The position numbers and the translations under genes are program-made. A stretch of DNA of 64,000 nucleotides from Gallionella sp. (GTDB lineage: Bacteria > Pseudomonadota > Gammaproteobacteria > Burkholderiales > Gallionellaceae): contig JAUXOL010000022.1 of NCBI GenBank assembly GCA_030682375.1, positions 186,001 through 250,000 on the forward strand, given 5' to 3'. The notes below the pieces were generated by a model, which was not told the DNA's origin, did no database searches, and worked only from the letters and a program-made list of their open reading frames with translations. Of this stretch, positions 10,376-20,383 are shown piece after piece (the stretch's first letter is position 1; every line of letters begins with the position of its first letter).

Positions 10376-11421
10376 AGATATTGCATGTCGCGCGCCGCTA
10401 CGGCCCGGTCGGCGGCATGGAGCGTTATGTGTGGGAAGTGACGCGCGAACTCGCGGCACTCGGCCATCAGGTCGAGGTGGTGTGCGAGCGCTGCTACGCC
10501 GAACCGCCGCCCGGCATCGAAGTACATGAGCTCGGGGAGATCGCCGCGCGTCCGCGCTGGATCGCGCTGCTGCGCTTCGGCAATCGCGTCGCGCGCTGGC
10601 TGCATGACAACCCACGCCCCGGTTCTGTAATCCACAGCCATGAGCGGCTGGATTGCCATCACACGACCACCTTCCACGGCCCGCCGTTCTCGACGGTGCG
10701 CGACAAGCCTTGGTGGAAGAAGCTGTCGTTGCGCATCGCGATGCAGCTGTGGCTGGAGCGGCGCGAGTTGCGGGTCGCTCGCGCCATCGTGCCGAACTCC
10801 GCGATCATTTCAAAGATGCTCGCGCACTACTATCCGGAGTACACGCACAAGCTGACCGCGCCGGTCGAGCCGGGCGTCGCCTCCGGCCCGCTGCGCGCAT
10901 TCCGCGCGGTCGATCCGCAGGGCGGCGTGATCGGTTTCATCGGCAAGGAATGGCAACGCAAAGGCCTGCCGCTGATCGCGGCCATCGTCGCCGAACTGCG
11001 CCGCACTCGCCCGAATCTGGAACTGTGGGTGATCGGCCCCGCACCGGAAGAGGTGCAACACCTGTTCGCCGAATGGCAAGGTGGCTACCGCCTGCTCGGC
11101 TGGCGCAGCGACAACGAGCACCTGAAAGATTTCGACGTGCTGCTGCACCCGGCGCGTGCCGAGCCTTACGGCATGGCGATCGCCGAGGCGATGGCCGCGC
11201 AAGTGCCGGTGGTGGTATCGGACGTATGCGGTGCGGCGGCTTCGGTCGGCGCGGAATCCGGCGCGGTGTTGCCGCTGTCCGCACCACTCAGCGACTGGGC
11301 CGCCGCCGTCGAGACGCAACTGAGGCGCGCGGACGCACCGCCCCGCTTCGACCGCGGCTGGCGTGCCGTCGCGGTCGAGTATGAGACAATCTACAAAAAC
11401 CTGAATGGTGAAAAGCGATGA
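10372..11421 (+). CDS. GT4 family glycosyltransferase
   Basis: 349-residue GT-B glycosyltransferase. Start chosen at ATG 10372, which overlaps the previous stop (ATGA) and opens with the family motif MKILHVARRYGPVGGMERYV, a donor-side glycine loop. The C-terminal domain has IGFIGKEWQRKGLPLI and the retaining-GT EX7E motif region AEPYGMAIAEAMAAQVPVV near residue 270. A signal peptide is absent, as expected for a cytoplasmic enzyme. Likely adds a hexose to LPS core or the O-unit; linkage cannot be assigned. Confidence 0.88.
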   Translation: MKILHVARRYGPVGGMERYVWEVTRELAALGHQVEVVCERCYAEPPPGIEVHELGEIAARPRWIALLRFGNRVARWLHDNPRPGSVIHSHERLDCHHTTTFHGPPFSTVRDKPWWKKLSLRIAMQLWLERRELRVARAIVPNSAIISKMLAHYYPEYTHKLTAPVEPGVASGPLRAFRAVDPQGGVIGFIGKEWQRKGLPLIAAIVAELRRTRPNLELWVIGPAPEEVQHLFAEWQGGYRLLGWRSDNEHLKDFDVLLHPARAEPYGMAIAEAMAAQVPVVVSDVCGAAASVGAESGAVLPLSAPLSDWAAAVETQLRRADAPPRFDRGWRAVAVEYETIYKNLNGEKR

Positions 11422-12269
11422 GTGAAAGATTCATGAAGTCCTGCCCGGTGGGCTGCGACGCCCCGCTGGAAACGACGAACCATGCGCTGCCGGAAGGCGC
11501 ACTGCTGCGCTGCACGAAATGCGGGCAGTTGCTGAGCCAGTGCACCGAGGCGCGCTACTGGCAGTCGATGGAAGAATTCGATGCGCCGCAGGGAACGCTG
11601 CCCAGCGAACGTTCGCTGGCCAGCCGTTTCCGCCGCAGCAAGAAGTTCCTCGACCAGATCGCGCGCCTGCTCGACAAGTCCCCCGGAGAGATCAAGCTGC
11701 TAGACGTCGGCTGCTCCAGCGGTGCCTTCCTCGCCGATGCGGTGAAGATGGGCTTCCGCGCCGAAGGCGTAGAGCCCGCGGCCGCACCGGTGGCGACCGC
11801 ACAGGCCGCGGGTCTGAACGTGCGTCAGGGACTATTGCAGGACATCGGTTATGCCGACGGCCAGTTCGATGCAATCACATTGCTCGAAGTCATCGAACAT
11901 CTGCAGGACCCGCATTCGCTGTTGCAGGAATGTCGCCGCATCCTGCGTCCGGGCGGCATCCTGCTGGTCGGCACCGGCAATGCCGCGAGCTGGACCTTCG
12001 CCGCCGAGGGCGCGCGCTGGGAATACCTGAGCATCGCCGGACACGGCGGTCATGTCAGTTTCTACAATCCGCAATCGCTGGGTACGCTGGCGCAGCGCAG
12101 CGGCTTCTCGGTCGCCGCAGTGCGCACCCGCGGCGTGCGTTTCTGCGAGAAGAGCGATTGCTCCAAGCCGGTGTACCGCCTCGCCAAGATCGCCGGCGAG
12201 TCGCTGAACTTCCTCGCCGCCGCGCTCGACAAGGGCCACGACATGGCGGTGTACCTGAGGCGCGACTGA
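11418..12269 (+). CDS. SAM-dependent methyltransferase with N-terminal Cys cluster
   Basis: 283-residue class I methyltransferase (Methyltransf_23-like). SAM-binding motif I is LLDVGCSSGAFLADA near residue 95. Motif II/IV is FDAITLLEVIEHLQDP and motif VI is ILRPGGILLVGTG. Before it sits a four-cysteine cluster (Cys9, Cys13, Cys32, Cys35) that looks like a zinc ribbon. This arrangement is seen in some sugar or lipid-linked glycan methyltransferases. ATGA overlap with the preceding glycosyltransferase suggests a role in glycan methylation, perhaps O-chain capping. The methylated substrate is unknown. Confidence 0.82.
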   Translation: MSERFMKSCPVGCDAPLETTNHALPEGALLRCTKCGQLLSQCTEARYWQSMEEFDAPQGTLPSERSLASRFRRSKKFLDQIARLLDKSPGEIKLLDVGCSSGAFLADAVKMGFRAEGVEPAAAPVATAQAAGLNVRQGLLQDIGYADGQFDAITLLEVIEHLQDPHSLLQECRRILRPGGILLVGTGNAASWTFAAEGARWEYLSIAGHGGHVSFYNPQSLGTLAQRSGFSVAAVRTRGVRFCEKSDCSKPVYRLAKIAGESLNFLAAALDKGHDMAVYLRRD

Positions 12270-12271
12270 CG

Positions 12272-13204
12272 ATGTCCCGCCCGCACCTCTCCGTCATCAT
12301 CCCGGTCTACAAGGCCGAGAACTGCCTGGACGAACTGTACCGCCGCCTGAGTGCGGCGCTGGGCGGCATAGACGAGAACTTCGAGATCGTCCTGGTCGAG
12401 GATTGCGGCGGCGACAACTCCTGGCAAAAGATAACGGAACTGGCGGCGCGCGACCCGCGCGTGCGCGGCATCCAGTTCAGCCGCAACTTCGGCCAGCACT
12501 ACGGCATCACCGCGGGCATCGACCACTGCACCGGCGACTGGGTGGTGGTGATGGATTGCGATCTGCAGGATCGCCCCGAGGAGATTCCGCGCCTGTATGC
12601 CAAAGCGCAGGAAGGCTACGACGTGGTGCTCGCGCGCCGCGGCGAAAGGCAGGACCCGCCGCTGAAGCGCTTCACCTCCTGGCTGTTCTACAAGGTGTTC
12701 AGCTATCTGGCCGATATCGAATACGACGGGCAGACCGGCAACTTCCGCATCATGTCGCGCAAGGTGGTGGAGAACCTGCGCACTGTGCGCGAACAATTGC
12801 GCTTCTTCGGCGGACTGGTGCAATGGCTGGGTTTTCCCACCGCGAGCATCGAAGTCGAACATGCCGAACGCCATGAGGGTCAATCGACTTACACCTACGC
12901 CAAGCTGTGGAAACTGGCCGCAGAGACCATCATCGCCTATTCGGACAAGCCGCTGCGGCTGGCGGTGCGCTTCGGCTTTCTGATGGCCTTCCTGTCGTTT
13001 TGCTACGGCCTGTACATCCTGATCCGCTCGATGTTCTACAGCGTGCCCATCATGGGCTGGAGCAGCCTGATCGTGTCGCTGTATTTCATCGGCGGCATCA
13101 TCATCTCCATCCTCGGCATCATCGGCATCTATCTGGGCAAGACCTTCGACGAGAGCAAGAAGCGCCCGCTCTACATCGTCAGGCGCGCAACCTTCGATGA
13201 GTGA
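12272..13204 (+). CDS. ArnC/GtrB-like polyprenyl-phosphate glycosyltransferase
   Basis: 310-residue GT2 enzyme of the DPM1/ArnC/GtrB type, predicted to load a sugar onto undecaprenyl phosphate. Start ATG 12272 lies two bases after the previous stop. It opens with PHLSVIIPVYKAENCLDELY. DxD-type VVMDCDLQDRPEE is near residue 95, the SRNFGQHYGITAGI run sits before it, and the TGNFRIMS motif follows. Two C-terminal membrane helices (about 225-250 and 260-290) end in a basic tail, as in ArnC. With the small flippase at 13862 and the GT39 enzyme at 14215 it forms a complete Arn/Gtr-type three-part set. Confidence 0.87.
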   Translation: MSRPHLSVIIPVYKAENCLDELYRRLSAALGGIDENFEIVLVEDCGGDNSWQKITELAARDPRVRGIQFSRNFGQHYGITAGIDHCTGDWVVVMDCDLQDRPEEIPRLYAKAQEGYDVVLARRGERQDPPLKRFTSWLFYKVFSYLADIEYDGQTGNFRIMSRKVVENLRTVREQLRFFGGLVQWLGFPTASIEVEHAERHEGQSTYTYAKLWKLAAETIIAYSDKPLRLAVRFGFLMAFLSFCYGLYILIRSMFYSVPIMGWSSLIVSLYFIGGIIISILGIIGIYLGKTFDESKKRPLYIVRRATFDE

Positions 13205-13865
13205 CCTGCTCAAACCTACTCCATGGGACACGGCGGCCTTCGGCATGCCGACCTGGGAGCTGACCGAATATTCCGCAGCCTCGCTACAACAGGCCGCGCA
13301 GACCGCGGGCCACCACACGATCAAGGTCGATCCGCTCGCCGACAAGCGCATGCTGCACGAGCAAGGCTTCTATTATTGCGACACGCTGATCGAACCGTAT
13401 TGCAACGCGACGCGATTGCGCCCGGCGCTTCATGCGGATGCGACCATAGGCAAGGAGCCGGATGCCGCACAGGCGATGGTCATCTGCCACGGTGCGTTCG
13501 CGCACGGCCGCTTCCACCGCGACTTCAACCTGTCGAAAGAGGCCGCCGACAAACGCTACGACAACTGGCTCGGACAGCTGCTCGACAAGAAACAGGTATA
13601 CGGCCTGTACTGGAAGAACGAGCTGGGCGGTTTCGTCGCCTACGACGGCAACAGCCTGTTGTTGCACGCCGTCGCGGAAAAATATCGCGGCAAGGGCTGT
13701 TCGAAATTCTGGTGGAGCGCGGTGTGCGAGGAATTGCTGGCGGCCGGGCATGACGAGGTGAAGAGCTCGATCTCCGCCGGCAACCTCGCCGTGCTGAACC
13801 TGTATGCCTCGCTCGGCTTCTCCTTCCGCAACCCGCAAGACATCTATCACCGACTGACACCATGA
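13197..13865 (+). CDS. GNAT acetyltransferase, WecD-like
   Basis: 222-residue protein with a C-terminal GNAT fold. The acetyl-CoA loop region is AEKYRGKGCSKFWW (about 158-171), followed by the strand and helix VKSSISAGNLAVLNLYASLGF that ends GNAT domains. The N-terminal part has PWDTAAFG and, mid-protein, RFHRDFNLSKEAADKRYDNW. The latter resembles the region of WecD (dTDP-fucosamine acetyltransferase) where RF...YAQW occurs. With wecE close by, it probably N-acetylates dTDP-4-amino-4,6-dideoxygalactose. The WecD link is my reading of patchy similarity. GNAT membership is firm. Confidence 0.72.
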   Translation: MSDLLKPTPWDTAAFGMPTWELTEYSAASLQQAAQTAGHHTIKVDPLADKRMLHEQGFYYCDTLIEPYCNATRLRPALHADATIGKEPDAAQAMVICHGAFAHGRFHRDFNLSKEAADKRYDNWLGQLLDKKQVYGLYWKNELGGFVAYDGNSLLLHAVAEKYRGKGCSKFWWSAVCEELLAAGHDEVKSSISAGNLAVLNLYASLGFSFRNPQDIYHRLTP

Positions 13866-14224
13866 GCTACTTCTACATCTTCATGACCATCGCGCTGACC
13901 GTGTACGGACAGATCGCGATCAAATGGCAAGTGCTGAAAGTCGGCGCGCTGCCGGAAGCGACGCCGGACAAGATCGTCTTCCTGCTGCACCTGCTGCTGA
14001 ACCCGTGGATCATCAGCGCGCTGCTGGCCGCGTTCCTCGCGTCGGTGTTCTGGATGGCGGCGATGACCAAGCTGCAGCTGAGCCACGCCTATCCCTTCAT
14101 GGGCCTGACCTTCGTCGTGGTGCTGCTGGCCAGCGGCTTCTTCTTCCAGGAACCGGTGACGCCGCTGAAGATGGCGGGCACCGCGTTGATTTTTCTGGGC
14201 CTGGTCGTCGCCAGTCAGGGCTGA
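13862..14224 (+). CDS. Small EamA/DMT-family membrane protein, ArnE/ArnF-like flippase
   Basis: 120-residue protein with four predicted helices (about 4-22, 40-63, 70-92, 100-118), the size and layout of SMR/EamA small transporters. Helix 3 begins in SHAYPFMGLTFVVV and helix 4 ends in ALIFLGLVVASQG, both typical of ArnE/ArnF relatives. ATGA-type overlap with the GNAT gene and nearness to an ArnC-like transferase argue that it flips an undecaprenyl-phosphate-linked sugar across the inner membrane. A drug-efflux SMR role is less likely in this context. Its last bases overlap the convergent GT39 gene. Confidence 0.75.
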   Translation: MSYFYIFMTIALTVYGQIAIKWQVLKVGALPEATPDKIVFLLHLLLNPWIISALLAAFLASVFWMAAMTKLQLSHAYPFMGLTFVVVLLASGFFFQEPVTPLKMAGTALIFLGLVVASQG

Positions 14225-15603
14225 TTGCAGGCCGTGCCGCGGCACAGCATATACAGCCGATCCCCCAGCAGTTTGTATACCTTGTATTCCTTGCCGAGCT
14301 GAGGATCCGCTTCGCGCGCCAGCACGAAGCCGTGCTCCCATTGTGCGGGCGGATGCTGCAGCGCCTGATGCGGATAGCGCTGCTGGTTGATGTAGGCCGT
14401 CACGTTCAGTCCCGGCGCGCTGGAGTCCGTCACGTACAGCGGCCGCTCGCCAGCGATGGCGACGATGTCGGCCGCCGCCAGCGCATAGTTCTCGCCGCGG
14501 AACTTGTGCTGGTAATAGGGAAAGACGAACAGTCCCAGCGCGAAACACAGCACGATAGCCGCCGCCAGCCAGCGCCGCGCGGTGCGCTGCGCGGCCTCGC
14601 CGGCCTGCCAGATCAGCCAGGCGCAGATCAGCGCAAACAGCGGATAGATCGGGATCAGGTAGCGCATCCCGCCATGCGGCGACAGCCAGTACGGCAGCAG
14701 ATTCAGCCCGGCGATCATCAATGCAGTACGAAAGTGGCGCGGATGATTGGTGTCGAACACGACGCGACGGCGCAGCAGGAAATAGATCGCCAGCGCGCCG
14801 GCCGGCAGCAGGCCGGACCAGGCCTCCAGCGGATACAGCACTAGCCGCGTCAGATATTCGCCGACGCCGGGGAAGGCCAGCTTGGCGAGTATCTCGTCGA
14901 ACATGCGTCCGCTCTGGCTGTGGCCCGACGGGATCATGGCGAACCACAATATCGGCGCGGCCAGCATCACCGCATGCGCCGCCAGCGACGGGATGCCCAG
15001 CAGCAGCTTGCGATAGTCGCGATCGAACAGCAGCACGAAGACCGCCGCGCCGTAGAACACATAAGCGGTGAACGCCTTGCTCAGCAGCGCGCAGGTCAGC
15101 GCGACCGCAGCCAGCCACAGCAAGCCGGGACGCGATCCCACGCATCCGGCCCACAGCAGCGCGATAGCACTGAAGATGAAGAAGCCGAACAGCGGATCGA
15201 CGTAGGCCAGCCAGCCGTGGTACATCATCACATCGGAGAAGGTCAGGTGCACCAGCGCGGCGAATGCGGCGAAGCGCCGGTCGCCGAACAGCCGCCAGAC
15301 CAGCCAGGCCAGCATCGCCGCCGTACCCAGCGTGGCCGCGACGGTCAGGCCGCGCGCGACGACCAGCACATTCGCCCAGCCCGCCAGATCGGCCAGCGGA
15401 ATGATCATCCAGTTGAACAGCGGGTTGTGCTGGACATCGTTGCCGTAAAGATACTGCTTCAGCCATACGCCGTGCTGCGCCATCTCCATCGACGAGATCG
15501 GGAAGATCGCCTCCTCGCCGATGTAATACAGGTTCAGCATCGGCAGGAAACTCAGCACCGCGAAGATCAGCAGCAAACGTACGCTCGGGTTGGGCAGGGT
15601 CAT
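14215..15603 (-). CDS. GT39-type (ArnT/PMT-like) membrane glycosyltransferase
   Basis: 462-residue polytopic inner-membrane enzyme that would use a polyprenyl-phosphate sugar donor on the periplasmic side. After helix 1 comes the acidic loop YIGEEAIFPISSMEMAQHG, matching the first-loop acidic motif of GT39/ArnT proteins. HNPLFNWMII and the later loop YHGWLAYVDPLFGF follow, then about ten helices and a soluble C-terminal domain. Last gene of the wecE-MBOAT-SGNH-GT39 minus-strand operon. It meets the ArnC/flippase genes tail to tail with a ten-base overlap, consistent with one pathway. The acceptor (lipid A, core or O-chain) is unknown. Confidence 0.83.
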   Translation of the reverse strand: MTLPNPSVRLLLIFAVLSFLPMLNLYYIGEEAIFPISSMEMAQHGVWLKQYLYGNDVQHNPLFNWMIIPLADLAGWANVLVVARGLTVAATLGTAAMLAWLVWRLFGDRRFAAFAALVHLTFSDVMMYHGWLAYVDPLFGFFIFSAIALLWAGCVGSRPGLLWLAAVALTCALLSKAFTAYVFYGAAVFVLLFDRDYRKLLLGIPSLAAHAVMLAAPILWFAMIPSGHSQSGRMFDEILAKLAFPGVGEYLTRLVLYPLEAWSGLLPAGALAIYFLLRRRVVFDTNHPRHFRTALMIAGLNLLPYWLSPHGGMRYLIPIYPLFALICAWLIWQAGEAAQRTARRWLAAAIVLCFALGLFVFPYYQHKFRGENYALAAADIVAIAGERPLYVTDSSAPGLNVTAYINQQRYPHQALQHPPAQWEHGFVLAREADPQLGKEYKVYKLLGDRLYMLCRGTACNQP

Positions 15604-15613
15604 TTTCAGAATC

Positions 15614-16813
15614 TCACATTAGGCCGCCGTCAGGCAGGTCGATCGTCCCGTCCGGGCGCGAGGCATCGCGCCAGAACGAGCGGAATATTTTCTCATAGCA
15701 GGTCGAAGCCGCGTGGTGCTCGTCGATGAACTCGTCGGCAGCGCAACCGTAGCGCTCCGCCTGTCCGGCGTCCAGTATCGCCACGTTCTGCTCGCGCGAC
15801 CAGGCATCGAGCGAGCGCTTGGTTTCTTGCAAATAAGCAGCGAGCTCCCGGTGGCGCAGGAATTCCGCCTCCATGCCGGGCAACAGCGGCGGCATGAACA
15901 GGATCACTCCGCCACCGTTCGCTCGGGCGCGTTCGGCCAGCGTTGCGAGCCGCTGCAACAGATGCGCGCTCGGGACGCCGCGCGACTCGACCAGATGCCG
16001 GCGATATTGCGAACCGCCGGATACGGAAAGCGGGATGCGCGCCTGCGCATTCGCGACGCGCGAGGAATTCGCGAAGGTCGCGCTGCCGTCGTGACGGAAG
16101 CCGGTGCAAGTGCCGCGATGGACGGTGTCGAAATCTTTCGCGGGCGTGCCGTCCGCGCAGCGGTACTCTCCGCTCCCCGCCTGCGTGAAATAGCCGCGGA
16201 AGGCCACCGCCTTGTCGTCGGCGCGCAGCACAGACTTGAATATCTCGAACAAGGTAGCGACGCGCGGCCAGGACAAGGCGTCGCGCATACGCGCCAGCAG
16301 CGGCGCCTGCTGCGCCGGGGATGCCGCCTGCGCCATTGCAGCCGCGGCGGAGAGGTCGGCATCCTGCACCGGAACCTGCTGGTAGACGAAGCCTGTAGCC
16401 CAGTCCAGGGGGATAACCAGCCACTTCACCTGCGGCGCATGGCGCTGCAAATATTCCGCCTCGCCGATAGAAGCGCTCAGCCCGTGGCCGCTCTGCGCGT
16501 AGTTGTAGATGCGCAGCGTATCCGGGAACGCCTGTTGCGTGATGCCCATCGCAGTGGACGAGCCGAACACCACGGCATTTATCTCCGGCAGCCGGTCGTT
16601 CAGGCGCAGCGTCTTGAACAGGTGCGTATCGCTCAGAGTCGGCGCGTAGGTGACGCCCTGCGTGCGCTGCTGCCACTGGCTCGCCAGCCGCACCTTGCCG
16701 CTGTTGCCCAGCGTGTCGTTCAACAGGATCAGGTTCAGCGCGAACACCGGCAACAGCGTCGCGCCGAAAGCGGCGGCCAGTATCCAGAAGTAGCGTTTGT
16801 GGTCGGCGGCCAT
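15614..16813 (-). CDS. SGNH-like/AlgJ-AlgX-type protein paired with MBOAT
   Basis: 399-residue protein with one N-terminal membrane anchor (about 8-31) and a periplasmic domain. It shows a Ser-type motif VVFGSSTAMGITQQ (Ser85-86 region), as in SGNH/GDSL-like acyl-transfer partners. Near the C-terminus FIDEHHA may hold the Asp/His pair. It starts one base after the upstream MBOAT gene stops. In alginate and other polysaccharide systems such a protein receives acyl groups from the MBOAT protein and puts them on the glycan. This role is inferred from pairing and the motif. Overall similarity to AlgJ/AlgX could not be measured. Confidence 0.72.
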   Translation of the reverse strand: MAADHKRYFWILAAAFGATLLPVFALNLILLNDTLGNSGKVRLASQWQQRTQGVTYAPTLSDTHLFKTLRLNDRLPEINAVVFGSSTAMGITQQAFPDTLRIYNYAQSGHGLSASIGEAEYLQRHAPQVKWLVIPLDWATGFVYQQVPVQDADLSAAAAMAQAASPAQQAPLLARMRDALSWPRVATLFEIFKSVLRADDKAVAFRGYFTQAGSGEYRCADGTPAKDFDTVHRGTCTGFRHDGSATFANSSRVANAQARIPLSVSGGSQYRRHLVESRGVPSAHLLQRLATLAERARANGGGVILFMPPLLPGMEAEFLRHRELAAYLQETKRSLDAWSREQNVAILDAGQAERYGCAADEFIDEHHAASTCYEKIFRSFWRDASRPDGTIDLPDGGLM

Positions 16814-16814
16814 A

Positions 16815-18374
16815 TCAGAACTGGAAGTAGAGGAACACCGACTGCTTGTTCAGGTTGACGATGGCGACGAAGCCGAGCAGCCACACTGCCAGCGCGGCGC
16901 GCGCGGTCGGCTTCCAGCGCAGCCGCGTCGTCGGCGTGTCGGTCGGCATGTCCAGCGCGGGGCGGTGTGCGGCCATGATCTGCTGGGTGTTCGGCGCGAG
17001 CCAGACGATCAGCAGCGAGATCCAGATCCAGTTGATCGCGCCGCCGGGAATCAGGTTATCGGTCGCACCGAACGCCACGCCCTGCGCGGCCAGCCACGCA
17101 CCGAAGCTGCCCCATTTCGCCAGCCAGGCATCCGGCAGCACGATGCCGTTGAGACCGGCCATCGATGCGAGCATGGACAGCGCGCTGTCCAGACTGTCCG
17201 CGCGAAAGAACACCCAAGCCACGGTCACCGCGAGGAAAGTCAGCAGCACCGACAGCGCATGCATGGGTCTGGACAACTTGGCCTTGGGGTTCTGCCCCAG
17301 CGCAATGCGCAGCGATTGCCAGCCGTGGTTGATAACCAGATACAGCCCGTGCAGCCCGCCCCAGATCACGAAGGTCCAGCCCGCGCCGTGCCACAGACCG
17401 CCCAGCAACATCGTGGCCATCAGGTTCAGGTAGCGCTGGAATCTGCCCTTGCGGTTGCCGCCCAGCGGGATGTACAGGTAATCGCGCAGGAAGCGCGACA
17501 GCGTCATGTGCCAGCGCCGCCAGAACTCGATGATGTTCGCGGACTTGTACGGCGAATGGAAGTTCAGCGGCAACACCACGCCGAACATGCGCGACAGGCC
17601 GATGGCCATGTCCGAGTAGCCGGAAAAGTCGAAATACAGCTGCAACGTGTAGCACAGCGCTCCGCCCCAGGCATCGACGAAGCCCAACTCGACGCCGGCC
17701 GCGGGTGCGGCGAATACCGGGCCGACGTAGACCGCGATACCGTCGGCCAGAATAACTTTTTTGAATAACCCGATGAAGAATATCGTCGAGCCGACCGCCA
17801 TGTTCTCGTAGCTGAAACGATACGTAGCCGCATGGCCGAACTGCGGCATCATCTCCTTGTGGTGCAGCACCGGACCCGCGATCAGATGCGGAAAATAGGT
17901 GACGAACAGCGTGTAATGGATGAAGTTGTATTCCTTCACCTCGCCGCGATAGGTGTCCACCAGGAACGCGATCTGGGTGAAGGTGAAGAACGAGATGCCC
18001 AGCGGCAGCACAATCTCGCCCAGCGACCACGACGTGCCTGCGACCTCGTTGAGGTTGCCGACGAAAAAGTTCGCGTACTTGTAATACGCCAGCAGCGCGA
18101 GGTTCGCGGCGATCGCGACGATCAGCAGCCGCTTCTTGCGCGCCTCCTCGTGCCGCACGCCAGCCTTGGCGATCCACATGCCGAACGCGTAATTACAGAC
18201 GATGGAGCCGAGCAGCAGGCCGACGTAAGCCGGATTCCAGTAGCCGTAGAAGAACACCGAGGCCAGCGCCAGCCAGCCTGCGGCGAAGGTGCGGCTGGTG
18301 CGTGCCAGTACGAAGAAACCGATCAGTACGACCGGCAGGTAGAGGAACAGGAAGCCGTAGGAGTTGAACAGCAT
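16815..18374 (-). CDS. MBOAT family O-acyltransferase (AlgI/DltB-like)
   Basis: 519-residue polytopic membrane protein that moves acyl groups, usually acetyl, from the cytoplasm to a periplasmic partner for polysaccharide O-acylation. Signature stretches are FPHLIAGPVLHHKEMMPQF (161-179), FWRRWHMTLSRFLRDYLYIP (284-303) and the catalytic-His region GGLWHGAGW, with His329. LPLNFHSPYKSANIIEF precedes it. All match AlgI. The start overlaps the wecE stop (TGATG) and the SGNH-like partner follows by one base. The natural acceptor may be the glycan built by this locus. Confidence 0.92.
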   Translation of the reverse strand: MLFNSYGFLFLYLPVVLIGFFVLARTSRTFAAGWLALASVFFYGYWNPAYVGLLLGSIVCNYAFGMWIAKAGVRHEEARKKRLLIVAIAANLALLAYYKYANFFVGNLNEVAGTSWSLGEIVLPLGISFFTFTQIAFLVDTYRGEVKEYNFIHYTLFVTYFPHLIAGPVLHHKEMMPQFGHAATYRFSYENMAVGSTIFFIGLFKKVILADGIAVYVGPVFAAPAAGVELGFVDAWGGALCYTLQLYFDFSGYSDMAIGLSRMFGVVLPLNFHSPYKSANIIEFWRRWHMTLSRFLRDYLYIPLGGNRKGRFQRYLNLMATMLLGGLWHGAGWTFVIWGGLHGLYLVINHGWQSLRIALGQNPKAKLSRPMHALSVLLTFLAVTVAWVFFRADSLDSALSMLASMAGLNGIVLPDAWLAKWGSFGAWLAAQGVAFGATDNLIPGGAINWIWISLLIVWLAPNTQQIMAAHRPALDMPTDTPTTRLRWKPTARAALAVWLLGFVAIVNLNKQSVFLYFQF

Positions 18375-19504
18375 CAGGCAGCGAAGAACTGCGCTATCGC
18401 CGCACAGATGCGCGCGACATCCGCGTCATTCATCTCGTAATACAGCGGCAGGCGCAGCAGACGTTCGTTCAGCTCGTCGGTCACCTGCATGCTGCCGCTG
18501 ACGCGTCCGAATTTGCGCCCGGCAGGCGACGAGTGCAGCGGCACATAGTGAAACACCGGATGGATGCCCTGCGCCTTGAGGTGCGCGATCAGCGCGCTGC
18601 GGCTCGCCAGGCTATCGAGCAGCATGTAGAACATATGGCCGTTGCTGTCGGCGTCGAAGTGCGGCAGACGCAGCTTGCCGGCCTGCTCCAGCGGCGCGAG
18701 TTGTTCGGCGTAGGCAGAGCAGATGTGGCAACGTTGCGCGGTGATCTCGTCGGCGCGCTCCAGCTGCGCATAAAGGAAGGCACTGACCAGTTCGCTCGGC
18801 AGGTAAGATGAGCCGATGTCTACCCAAGTATATTTGTCGACTTCGCCGCGAAAGAACTGACTGCGGTTCGTGCCCTTCTCGCGGATGATCTCGGCGCGCT
18901 CGAAAAATCGCTCGTCGTTGATCAGCAGCGCGCCGCCTTCGCCGCTGATGATGTTCTTGGTCTCGTGGAAACTCAGACAGCCGAAATGGCCTATCGTGCC
19001 CAGCGCGCGCCCCTTGTAAGTGGACAGCAGCGCCTGCGCCGCATCCTCGACCACCAGCAGACCATGACGCTGCGCGATGTCCATGATCGTATCCATCTCG
19101 CAGGGCACGCCGGCGTAGTGCACCGGCACGATGGCGCGAGTCTTCGGGGTGATCGCGGCCTCGATCAGCCGTTCGTCGATATTCAGCGTGTCCGGGCGTA
19201 TGTCCACGAATACCGGCACCGCGCCGCGCAGCGCGAAGGCATTGGCCGTGGAGACGAAGGTATAGGAAGGCAGGATGACCTCGTCGCCGGGCTGCAGATC
19301 GCACAGGATCGCGGCCATCTCCAGCGCCGCGGTGCACGAGTGCGTCAGCAACGCCTTGCGGCAATGCAGCGTCTCCTCGAACCAGCGATTGCACAGCTTG
19401 GTGTAATGTCCGTCGCCGGAAATATGGCCGCGCGAAACGGCGTCGGCGATCAGCGCCAGCTCGCGGCCGATGATGAACGGCTTGTTGAAAGGAATGGGTT
19501 TCAT
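18374..19504 (-). CDS. wecE: dTDP-4-amino-4,6-dideoxygalactose transaminase
   Basis: PLP aminotransferase of the DegT/DnrJ/EryC1 family, converting dTDP-4-keto-6-deoxyglucose to dTDP-Fuc4N with glutamate. Start taken at ATG 19504, giving IPFNKPF near the N-terminus and 376 residues, matching E. coli WecE. A GTG three codons earlier is possible. Motifs: LTHSCTAALEMAAIL, LPSYTFVSTANAFALRGA, VVEDAAQALLSTYKG, and the PLP-lysine stretch SFHETKNIISGEGGALL with Lys183. It heads a minus-strand operon with the MBOAT, SGNH and GT39 genes and is divergent from apaH, only about 57 bases away. Confidence 0.9.
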   Translation of the reverse strand: MKPIPFNKPFIIGRELALIADAVSRGHISGDGHYTKLCNRWFEETLHCRKALLTHSCTAALEMAAILCDLQPGDEVILPSYTFVSTANAFALRGAVPVFVDIRPDTLNIDERLIEAAITPKTRAIVPVHYAGVPCEMDTIMDIAQRHGLLVVEDAAQALLSTYKGRALGTIGHFGCLSFHETKNIISGEGGALLINDERFFERAEIIREKGTNRSQFFRGEVDKYTWVDIGSSYLPSELVSAFLYAQLERADEITAQRCHICSAYAEQLAPLEQAGKLRLPHFDADSNGHMFYMLLDSLASRSALIAHLKAQGIHPVFHYVPLHSSPAGRKFGRVSGSMQVTDELNERLLRLPLYYEMNDADVARICAAIAQFFAA

Positions 19505-19561: not shown

Positions 19562-20383
19562 ATGGCGATCTACGCGGTAGGCGATATACAAGGCTGCCAC
19601 ACCGAACTGATGCGGACACTGGAGGCGATACGCTTCGATCCGGCGCAGGACAAGCTATGGCTGGTCGGCGACCTGGTCAATCGCGGCCCCGGCTCGCTGG
19701 AGGTGCTGCGGCTGGTGAAGTCGCTGGGCGACAGCGCGATCACGGTACTCGGCAACCACGACCTGCACCTGCTAGCGGTGTCTACCGGCGCTGCGGAGCT
19801 GCACCGCAGCGACACGCTGGACGAACTGCTCGCCGCCCCCGACCGCGACGAACTGCTGCACTGGCTGCGCCACCAGCGCCTGCTGCATGCCGAAGGCGGC
19901 TACGTGCTGGTGCATGCAGGCCTGCTGCCGGGCTGGACGGTAAAACAGGCCGCAAAACTCGCGCGCGAAGTCGAGACCGCGCTACGCGGCGACGACTACG
20001 CCACCTTCTTTGCGCGCATGTACGGCAACAACCCCCACGGCTGGGACGACGGACTCACCGGCTACAAACGTCTGCGCGTGATCACCAATGCGCTGACGCG
20101 CATGCGCATCTGCACCCCGCAGGGCGACATGGAGTTCAAGTTCAAGGGCGAGTTGCACAACATCCCGGAAGGCTATATGCCTTGGTTCGATGTCCCCGAC
20201 CGCGCCAGCCGCGACGCGACCGTGATCTTCGGCCACTGGTCCGCACTGGGCCTGCTGCTCCGCGACGACGCGATCGCCCTCGACACCGGCTGCCTGTGGG
20301 GCGGCCCGATGACCGCGATCCGCCTGAACGACCGCAAGCTGTTCCAGGTGGAATGCAACAACCCGGTGGAGAAGCATTGGTAA
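19562..20383 (+). CDS. apaH: Symmetrical bis(5'-nucleosyl)-tetraphosphatase
   Basis: Hydrolyses Ap4A to two ADP and limits alarmone/NpnN-cap levels. Typical length (273 residues). Calcineurin-type metal motifs are all present: GDIQGCH (7-13), VGDLVNRGPGSLEVLR, GNHDLHLLAV and VHAGLLPGW. The C-terminal ApaH signature FGHWSALG and DTGCLWGG are also there. Starts in a compact divergent region with wecE. Not obviously linked in function to its neighbours. Confidence 0.97.
   Translation: MAIYAVGDIQGCHTELMRTLEAIRFDPAQDKLWLVGDLVNRGPGSLEVLRLVKSLGDSAITVLGNHDLHLLAVSTGAAELHRSDTLDELLAAPDRDELLHWLRHQRLLHAEGGYVLVHAGLLPGWTVKQAAKLAREVETALRGDDYATFFARMYGNNPHGWDDGLTGYKRLRVITNALTRMRICTPQGDMEFKFKGELHNIPEGYMPWFDVPDRASRDATVIFGHWSALGLLLRDDAIALDTGCLWGGPMTAIRLNDRKLFQVECNNPVEKHW

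Follow-up and report, generated by a model that had tools for sequence, protein, structure and literature searches.

A Gallionella gene cassette that probably provides Fuc4NAc for periplasmic glycan decoration

Background

Surface glycans can be decorated in the periplasm by "three-component" systems, which combine a polyprenyl-phosphate sugar, a flippase, and a GT-C glycosyltransferase. GtrA-GtrB-GT-C systems of this kind are described in PMC11127046 for O-antigen glucosylation, galactosylation, and ribofuranosylation, and the donors given there for known three-component systems are lipid-linked glucose, galactose, ribofuranose, or 4-amino-4-deoxy-L-arabinose (Ara4N). Here we consider a gene cassette at positions 12272-19504 of a 64,000-nucleotide stretch of DNA (the window) from Gallionella sp. 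(assembly GCA_030682375.1, contig JAUXOL010000022.1, positions 186,001 to 250,000). Within it a polyprenyl-phosphate glycosyltransferase of family GT2, a small flippase-like protein, and a GT-C enzyme are encoded together as a three-component set, along with the aminotransferase WecE and an acetyltransferase of the GNAT family. An undecaprenyl-phosphate sugar intermediate for periplasmic use is predicted from this gene set, and the whole is probably a periplasmic, three-component glycan-decoration cassette whose sugar source is deoxythymidine diphosphate (dTDP)-linked 4-acetamido-4,6-dideoxygalactose (dTDP-Fuc4NAc).

The ArnC-ArnE/F-ArnT system, which places L-Ara4N on lipid A, has the same three activities, and the GT-C enzyme of the cassette has the ArnT fold. 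Identities to the E. coli Arn proteins are 31.6% over 307 amino acids (aa) for ArnC, 36% over 55 aa for ArnE, and 28.5% over 186 aa for ArnT, and the window GT-C is shorter than ArnT (462 vs 550 aa). However, the Arn system uses a uridine diphosphate (UDP)-pentose, whereas the window cassette would use a dTDP-hexose, with WecE and the WecD-like GNAT in place of ArnB and ArnA. The GtrA-GtrB-GT-C systems resemble the cassette in their polyprenyl-phosphate sugar, flippase, and GT-C; GtrB is the nearest relative of the window ArnC-like protein in the PDB, and GtrA stands for ArnF in several relatives of the cassette. They differ in the donor, which in the window would be a dTDP-4-amino-4,6-dideoxyhexose made by a dedicated WecE/WecD-like pair. 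The same nucleotide-sugar enzymes serve the enterobacterial common antigen (ECA), for which rffG, rffH, rffC (wecD), and wecE are adjacent in E. coli K-12. By annotation, E. coli WecF passes Fuc4NAc to lipid II and WzxE flips lipid III; unlike ECA, neither WecF nor WzxE was found in the window and loci L036-L170 (136 sequences).

The machinery is of a known kind, and what appears new is the donor sugar: searches of the open-access PMC literature turned up no recognized description of a periplasmic Fuc4NAc donor. If the reading is true, a dTDP-derived 4-amino-4,6-dideoxyhexose represents a new class of donor for three-component systems.

The proposed pathway and the layout of the cassette

In the pathway that we infer, both for its catalytic steps and for their order, RmlA and RmlB would generate dTDP-4-keto-6-deoxyglucose, which WecE would aminate to dTDP-Fuc4N. 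The WecD-like GNAT would then N-acetylate this sugar, acetyl being the presumed N-acyl group, and the ArnC/GtrB-like enzyme would move Fuc4NAc to undecaprenyl phosphate. After the ArnE/F-like protein has flipped the lipid-linked sugar, the ArnT-fold GT-C would transfer Fuc4NAc to a surface glycan in the periplasm. The acceptor would most likely be core lipopolysaccharide (LPS) or an O-unit specified by neighboring genes. Of the paths that give each linked gene (RmlA/RmlB, WecE, GNAT, ArnC-like, ArnF-like, and GT-C) a role, this one is the simplest. It is supported by the identities of WecE, RmlA, and RmlB, by the WecD and ArnT folds, and by the co-inheritance of the set, that is, by sequence, fold, or linkage; the overall periplasmic-transfer reading of the original prediction is thereby upheld.

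The five genes on which that prediction was built are all intact open reading frames at its positions, and their grouping recurs in tens of other loci, which argues that it is not due to chance. They lie in two runs that converge at 14215-14224, where the 3' ends overlap by 10 bases; within each run, cassette neighbors overlap or are at most about 10 bases apart. The plus-strand run carries the ArnC-like, GNAT, and ArnF-like genes. In reading order, the minus-strand run consists of WecE (19504-18374), an MBOAT protein (18374-16815), an SGNH-like protein (16813-15614), and the GT-C (15603-14215), so that the earlier list for this strand, which omitted the MBOAT and SGNH-like genes, was incomplete. 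The convergent split had also been called unusual. It is instead one arrangement among several, and it was rejected as a functional signal since eight other loci are collinear.

Synthesis of the sugar

By sequence, the protein at 18374-19504 (minus strand) is WecE, the dTDP-4-keto-6-deoxyglucose C4 aminotransferase, by a wide margin. It scores 620 bits against NF008687 (cut-off 375) and 590 bits against TIGR02379 (cut-off 434.85), and it is the sole protein in the genome above the latter cut-off. Against the PDB the WecE entries 4piw and 6blg score 493 and 487 bits, and every other sugar aminotransferase, in a comparison that did not include VioA, reaches at most 189 bits. The protein and E. 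coli WecE are 60.5% identical over 375 residues, compared with 31.8% for ArnB. The possibility raised with the original prediction, that the protein might fall with enzymes for another sugar, is thus not borne out. The two WecE models bear names that conflict on gluco versus galacto at C4, so the assignment of this configuration goes back to E. coli WecE, which makes the galacto sugar; galacto is therefore suggested by family membership.

The supply of dTDP-glucose by rfbA, as originally proposed, agrees with the gene content. RmlA (RfbA) is encoded at 768-1658 on the plus strand (TIGR01207, 525 bits, cut-off 360.65), with rmlD, rmlC, and rmlB nearby. The rmlB match (G000:C2:184814-185818; 511.7 bits, cut-off 365.1) ends about 180 bp ahead of the window start.

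The GNAT (13197-13865, plus strand) is the proposed N-acyl(acetyl)transferase acting on dTDP-Fuc4N. In sequence it resembles WecD weakly, and the resemblance becomes convincing only by fold, so that the earlier label "WecD-like" holds for the structure and not for the sequence. The protein scores 22 bits (E 1.2e-4) against the WecD model PRK10975 of NCBIfam, under the cut-off of 219, and is 21% identical to E. coli WecD by blastp (E 0.003). A profile comparison from which WecD was kept out of the alignment gave a probability of 75 and E 2.6e-5, a narrower alignment a probability of 13.5, and a profile search of the PDB returned no WecD entry at E up to 1. The AlphaFold2 model (predicted local distance difference test, pLDDT, 91.5) ranks WecD (2fs5) first among 350,542 chains in Foldseek, at E 2.1e-12 and a TM-score of 0.76 both ways. 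Among the proteins listed in the VIA-align superposition, WecD gives Z 18.9 and a root mean square deviation (rmsd) of 2.8 over 206 aa, and the next protein Z 14.7. Tyr203 of the GNAT pairs with WecD Tyr208, the proposed acid, and is invariant across 24 close sequences. The GNAT is found paired with WecE in two loci that have no ArnC (L137 and L144), which suggests that it acts on the nucleotide sugar.

Lipid transfer, flipping, and periplasmic transfer

The ArnC/GtrB-like GT2 enzyme (12272-13204, plus strand; PF00535) is the proposed undecaprenyl-phosphate Fuc4NAc synthase. Its nearest solved relatives are GtrB sll0501 (226 bits) and then ArnC (159 bits), and its sequence contains a DCDLQD motif. 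The gene at 13862-14224 (plus strand) specifies a small EamA-type membrane protein that is the candidate flippase or flippase subunit; its matches to the NCBIfam ArnF (E 2.7e-12) and ArnE (E 8.4e-9) models are both below cut-off.

The proposed periplasmic transferase, at 14215-15603 on the minus strand, had been called a GT39 enzyme, a family to which it has no clear match: in Pfam, PF03901 alone reached E 0.01, a weak match, and a PDB profile search with the sequence returned no entry. Foldseek with the model (pLDDT 90.3) places ArnT first (5ezm and 5f15; E 5e-10 for 5ezm), as does VIA-align, in which ArnT 5f15 gives Z 33.2 and rmsd 3.3 over 418 residues; the next protein among those listed, ALG12, gives 24.7, and Pmt4 ranks lower still at 23.1. 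The GT-C profile matches E. coli ArnT at a probability of 96.8 (E 2.1e-10), and Glu31 aligns with the second residue of the ArnT Asp-Glu pair. With ArnT as the first fold match, "ArnT-like GT-C" describes the protein better than GT39 does.

Linkage of the genes in relatives

Among 150 genomes of the Gallionellaceae, whose counts are uncorrected for kinship, WecE (E <= 1e-100) occurs in 37, the GNAT (1e-20) in 26, the ArnC-like protein (1e-70) in 36, and the GT-C (1e-20) in 36. For co-occurrence, ArnC was counted at an identity of at least 66%, which retains 32 of the 36 genomes. All 26 genomes with the GNAT also have ArnC, and 25 have WecE; in the remaining one (G014) the GNAT lies near a contig end. 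The 27 genomes with WecE at 80% identity or more contain ArnC in 22 cases, the GNAT in 20, and the GT-C in 22, and every genome with the GT-C at 50% or more (22/22) has such a WecE. None of the four genomes with the nearest WecE (92-93%; G111, G001, G054, and G081) lacks the ArnC-like, GNAT, or GT-C gene, so that in these four a near-identical wecE is accompanied by all three partners. ArnF was not found in these four; GtrA is close by, on the opposite strand, in three (L036-L038).

A scan of a wider genome collection with the GNAT alignment only recovered 149 relatives, and the counts that follow cover the best 80 of the 149. In 75 of these 80 loci the gene immediately before the GNAT, on its strand, is ArnC; WecE (at least 45% identity) lies within 7 kb of the GNAT in 71, and both are present in 66. 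Seven of the nine WecE misses are at most 1.6 kb from a contig end (L104, L106, L121, L154, L157, L164, and L170); of the other two, L120 has its WecE 7.3 kb away, and the contig of L124 is 8.4 kb long. An ArnF-like gene is near the GNAT in 41 loci and GtrA in a further 19. In the eight loci that lie on one strand (L135, L139, L140, L143, L145, L149, L152, and L160) the order is ArnC-GNAT-ArnF-methyltransferase-WecE-MBOAT-SGNH-GT-C, and in the family loci L061, L064, L065, and L067, WecE is on the same strand as ArnC and the GNAT. Many of the scan records come from metagenome bins and may be misnamed; isolates among them include Duganella, Methylobacillus, Mariprofundus, Alteribacillus, and Salibacterium. 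Three metagenome-assembled genomes (L135, L160, and L162) are titled Bordetella parapertussis or Chitinophaga pinensis, titles or binning that are probably wrong; their cassettes resemble those of Betaproteobacteria, for L135 and L160 also by the position of the GT-C in a tree.

The arrangement extends to Gram-positive bacteria. Seven Bacilli loci (L156, L159, L163, L165, L167, L168, and L169) have the order RmlA-ArnC-GNAT-ArnF-WecE, with RmlB between RmlA and ArnC in all three that were checked (L156, L159, and L167). In Alteribacillus iranensis and Salibacterium qingdaonense the genes RmlA-RmlB-ArnC-GNAT-ArnF-WecE-DUF6044 are consecutive. The DUF6044 protein (PF19510), which follows WecE at L159:12213-13925 and L167:12196-13911, is a multi-transmembrane protein with 8-9 hydrophobic stretches and is a candidate for the Gram-positive extracytoplasmic transferase; in L156 a Tlp gene follows WecE, without DUF6044. 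A profile search of the PDB with DUF6044 gave no entry at E up to 1, and comparison with the GT-C profile gave a probability of 0.3, so the case for a GT-C comes from its place and its hydrophobic stretches. No mention of DUF6044 by name was found in the open-access papers searched.

Weighing the alternatives

Several observations count against the proposed pathway. Three loci have the GNAT and WecE without ArnC (L123, L137, and L144), and in 20 of the 80 loci neither ArnF nor GtrA was detected near the GNAT by tblastn, with weaker ArnF-like genes called in two of them (L125 and L127). Within the family, ArnC at 66% or more is missing from 7 of the 37 WecE genomes, G108 has ArnC and no GNAT, and G013 (L074) has an ArnC-like protein (71%) and a WecE-type GT-C with neither WecE nor GNAT at the thresholds used. 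A further 14 genomes have the GT-C but no WecE and 15 have WecE but no GT-C, so these two are less tightly tied than the GNAT and ArnC. Two Bacilli have Thr or Val in place of the tyrosine that corresponds to WecD Tyr208, some Fuc4N cassettes (e.g. L037 and L038) have no MBOAT/SGNH pair beside them, and the evidence for the acceptor is positional. Some of the misses coincide with contig ends or short contigs: among WecE genomes without ArnC or the GNAT, WecE lies on 3-6 kb contigs in G034, G148, and G011, near a contig start in G149, and a few kb from a contig end in G124. The misses in G108 and in G141, where there has been a real swap (L050), do not look like contig-end effects.

The known uses of such sugars are the first to compare. 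No ArnA or ArnD match to the E. coli queries was found at E 1e-6 in the window, the only part of this genome that the search covered. At the same threshold, E. coli ArnD matched none of the 136 sequences, and ArnA gave weak matches (22-25%) in 6 loci. The WecF family PF07429 has no match in the genome, with the E. coli positive control detected, and E. coli WecF, WzxE, and RffM matched 0/136 sequences at E 1e-6, WzxE being searched in these sequences and not genome-wide. Since ArnA, ArnD, and WecF are missing from the window and the WecF family from the genome, neither known use fits; the Ara4N pathway proper was rejected for want of an ArnA or ArnD match in the window, and ECA-type cytoplasmic use for want of WecF. 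The earlier parallel to L-Ara4N addition therefore stands for the machinery and falls for the formyl/deformyl cycle and the free amine. The N-acyl group is probably kept, which makes a cationic, Ara4N-like effect unlikely, and the product is probably neutral Fuc4NAc. We accordingly give very little credence to a cationic free-amine decoration of lipid A, acting like L-Ara4N against cationic peptides. The ArnT fold of the GT-C would suit it, but the GNAT is present in 20 of the 27 family genomes with a close WecE, and E. coli ArnD has no match at E 1e-6 in the 136 sequences, which leaves room for a deacetylase of another family or one encoded elsewhere in the genome.

Also unlikely is a cytoplasmic fate for dTDP-Fuc4NAc, in which an ordinary O-unit glycosyltransferase would consume it as WecF does in ECA, while the ArnC-like, ArnF-like, and GT-C proteins serve another sugar. 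Cytoplasmic GT2 and GT4 genes and a Wzy_C gene do adjoin the cassette, and the three loci that pair the GNAT and WecE without ArnC would fit such a use; against it are the lack of WecF, WzxE, and RffM described above and the position of the ArnC-like gene, which immediately precedes the GNAT in 75 of 80 loci and likewise in the Bacilli runs. A somewhat larger, though still small, chance attaches to a different sugar handled by the same machinery, either the C4 epimer (Qui4N, the viosamine type) or another N-acyl group. The conflicting WecE model names leave space for the epimer, GNAT folds accept many acyl donors, and in some loci the place of the GNAT is taken by hexapeptide enzymes related to the NeuD/PglB/VioB family (below cut-off). 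The 60.5% identity to E. coli WecE, a galacto enzyme, in a comparison without VioA, and the WecD-like acetyltransferase fold of the GNAT point instead to Fuc4NAc.

The MBOAT/SGNH pair

The MBOAT acyltransferase (16815-18374, minus strand; PF03062, E 1.3e-30) is of the DltB (DltB/AlgI) type: it scores 190 bits against the DltB model TIGR04091, below the cut-off of 375, and its best PDB match is DltB 6bug (E 4.2e-29). Its proposed periplasmic partner, the SGNH-like protein (15614-16813, minus strand), has weak DUF1574/GDSL matches, and a profile search of the PDB returned four unrelated entries, the best at E 0.21. Residues G84, S86, D364, and H367 are invariant among 20 aligned sequences, a DltD-like order (Ser, Asp-x-x-His). 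As in DltB/DltD and AlgI/AlgJ, an MBOAT and an SGNH-like gene stand side by side; unlike those systems, no carrier gene is next to the window pair. The pair probably acylates the glycan in the periplasm, with acetyl the likely group. Because it is present in 7 of 13 alternative-sugar loci (L077, L079, L080, L081, L086, L087, and L088) and is missing beside some Fuc4N cassettes, it may modify something that several glycans share, for example the acceptor.

In L058 (4357-7586), the SGNH and MBOAT genes are separated by genes for an FkbH_N protein, a short-chain dehydrogenase/reductase, and an acyl carrier protein; the MBOAT of that strain may thus draw on an acyl group bound to a carrier. MBOAT fragments beside fuller copies in L050 (8053-8298) and L039, the latter with apaH fragments as well, look like scars of cassette exchange.

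A site of exchange beside apaH

The slots of the cassette behave like modules. GtrA (PF04138) takes the ArnF slot in L059 and other relatives, hexapeptide acyltransferases take the GNAT slot in L050, L062, and L070, and methyltransferases of other types come and go at or near the slot at 11418-12269. In two of these loci a WbqC-like protein (PF08889; L050:13987-14769 and L070:11758-12588) is found beside a PglD-like hexapeptide enzyme that occupies the GNAT slot.

Other Gallionellaceae carry the same GT-C family near apaH at 39-47% identity. In L075-L084 and L086-L088 the sugar genes that accompany it there are different ones, and most of these alternative cassettes occupy the position that the window cassette has. 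The GT-C stands there either with another DegT aminotransferase, GtrA, a diverged ArnC, and a NeuD/PglB/VioB-type hexapeptide enzyme (below cut-off), or with an epimerase-like gene. The site therefore resembles an island at which glycan-decoration genes can be swapped. A tree of 52 GT-Cs, which omits L091-L121, hits with a stop, and hits with fewer than about 400 aligned query residues, puts 13 of the 16 rows without WecE in one branch, whose support (88/90) is not strong. The WecE label changes 4 times on this tree vs 13.8 in shuffles, and G110 has one GT-C of each type. The "no WecE" label was set per locus, and L089 (from G108, whose WecE lies on a different contig) and L170 (a 4.3 kb contig) received it for lack of sequence. 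From this sorting by sugar genes, the GT-C seems to track the sugar donor, to which G013 is an exception.

Taken more broadly, the chances are about even that undecaprenyl-phosphate Fuc4NAc is a widespread and unrecognized periplasmic donor in both Gram-negative and Gram-positive bacteria, with a swappable island on the apaH side in Gallionellaceae and DUF6044 as the Gram-positive transferase. Sugar-making, flipping, methylating, and acylating genes would then be exchanged around a common GT-C, changing the surface antigen type. The island could serve antigen variation, and the surface glycan might play a part in encrustation or phage contact of these iron oxidizers. If true, this would also give a function to the GNAT family in 149 genome stretches and a candidate function to DUF6044, and would provide a marker set with which such glycans can be found from genomes.

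Neighboring genes

The genome that contains the window is 2.78 Mb in 22 contigs and is given as 100% complete. Promoter and terminator scans (0 found vs 1.6 expected and 12 found vs 6.6 expected, respectively) were not used. Upstream of the cassette are rmlD, rmlA, rmlC, kdtA, and genes for a heptosyltransferase, a WecA-like transferase, and a CapD-like dehydratase; a Wzy_C protein and further glycosyltransferases (GT2, GT4) are also encoded upstream of or adjoining it. On the other side, apaH is next after wecE, at 19562. An S-adenosylmethionine-dependent methyltransferase (11418-12269, plus strand; PF13489), possibly a tailoring enzyme, adjoins the ArnC-like gene.

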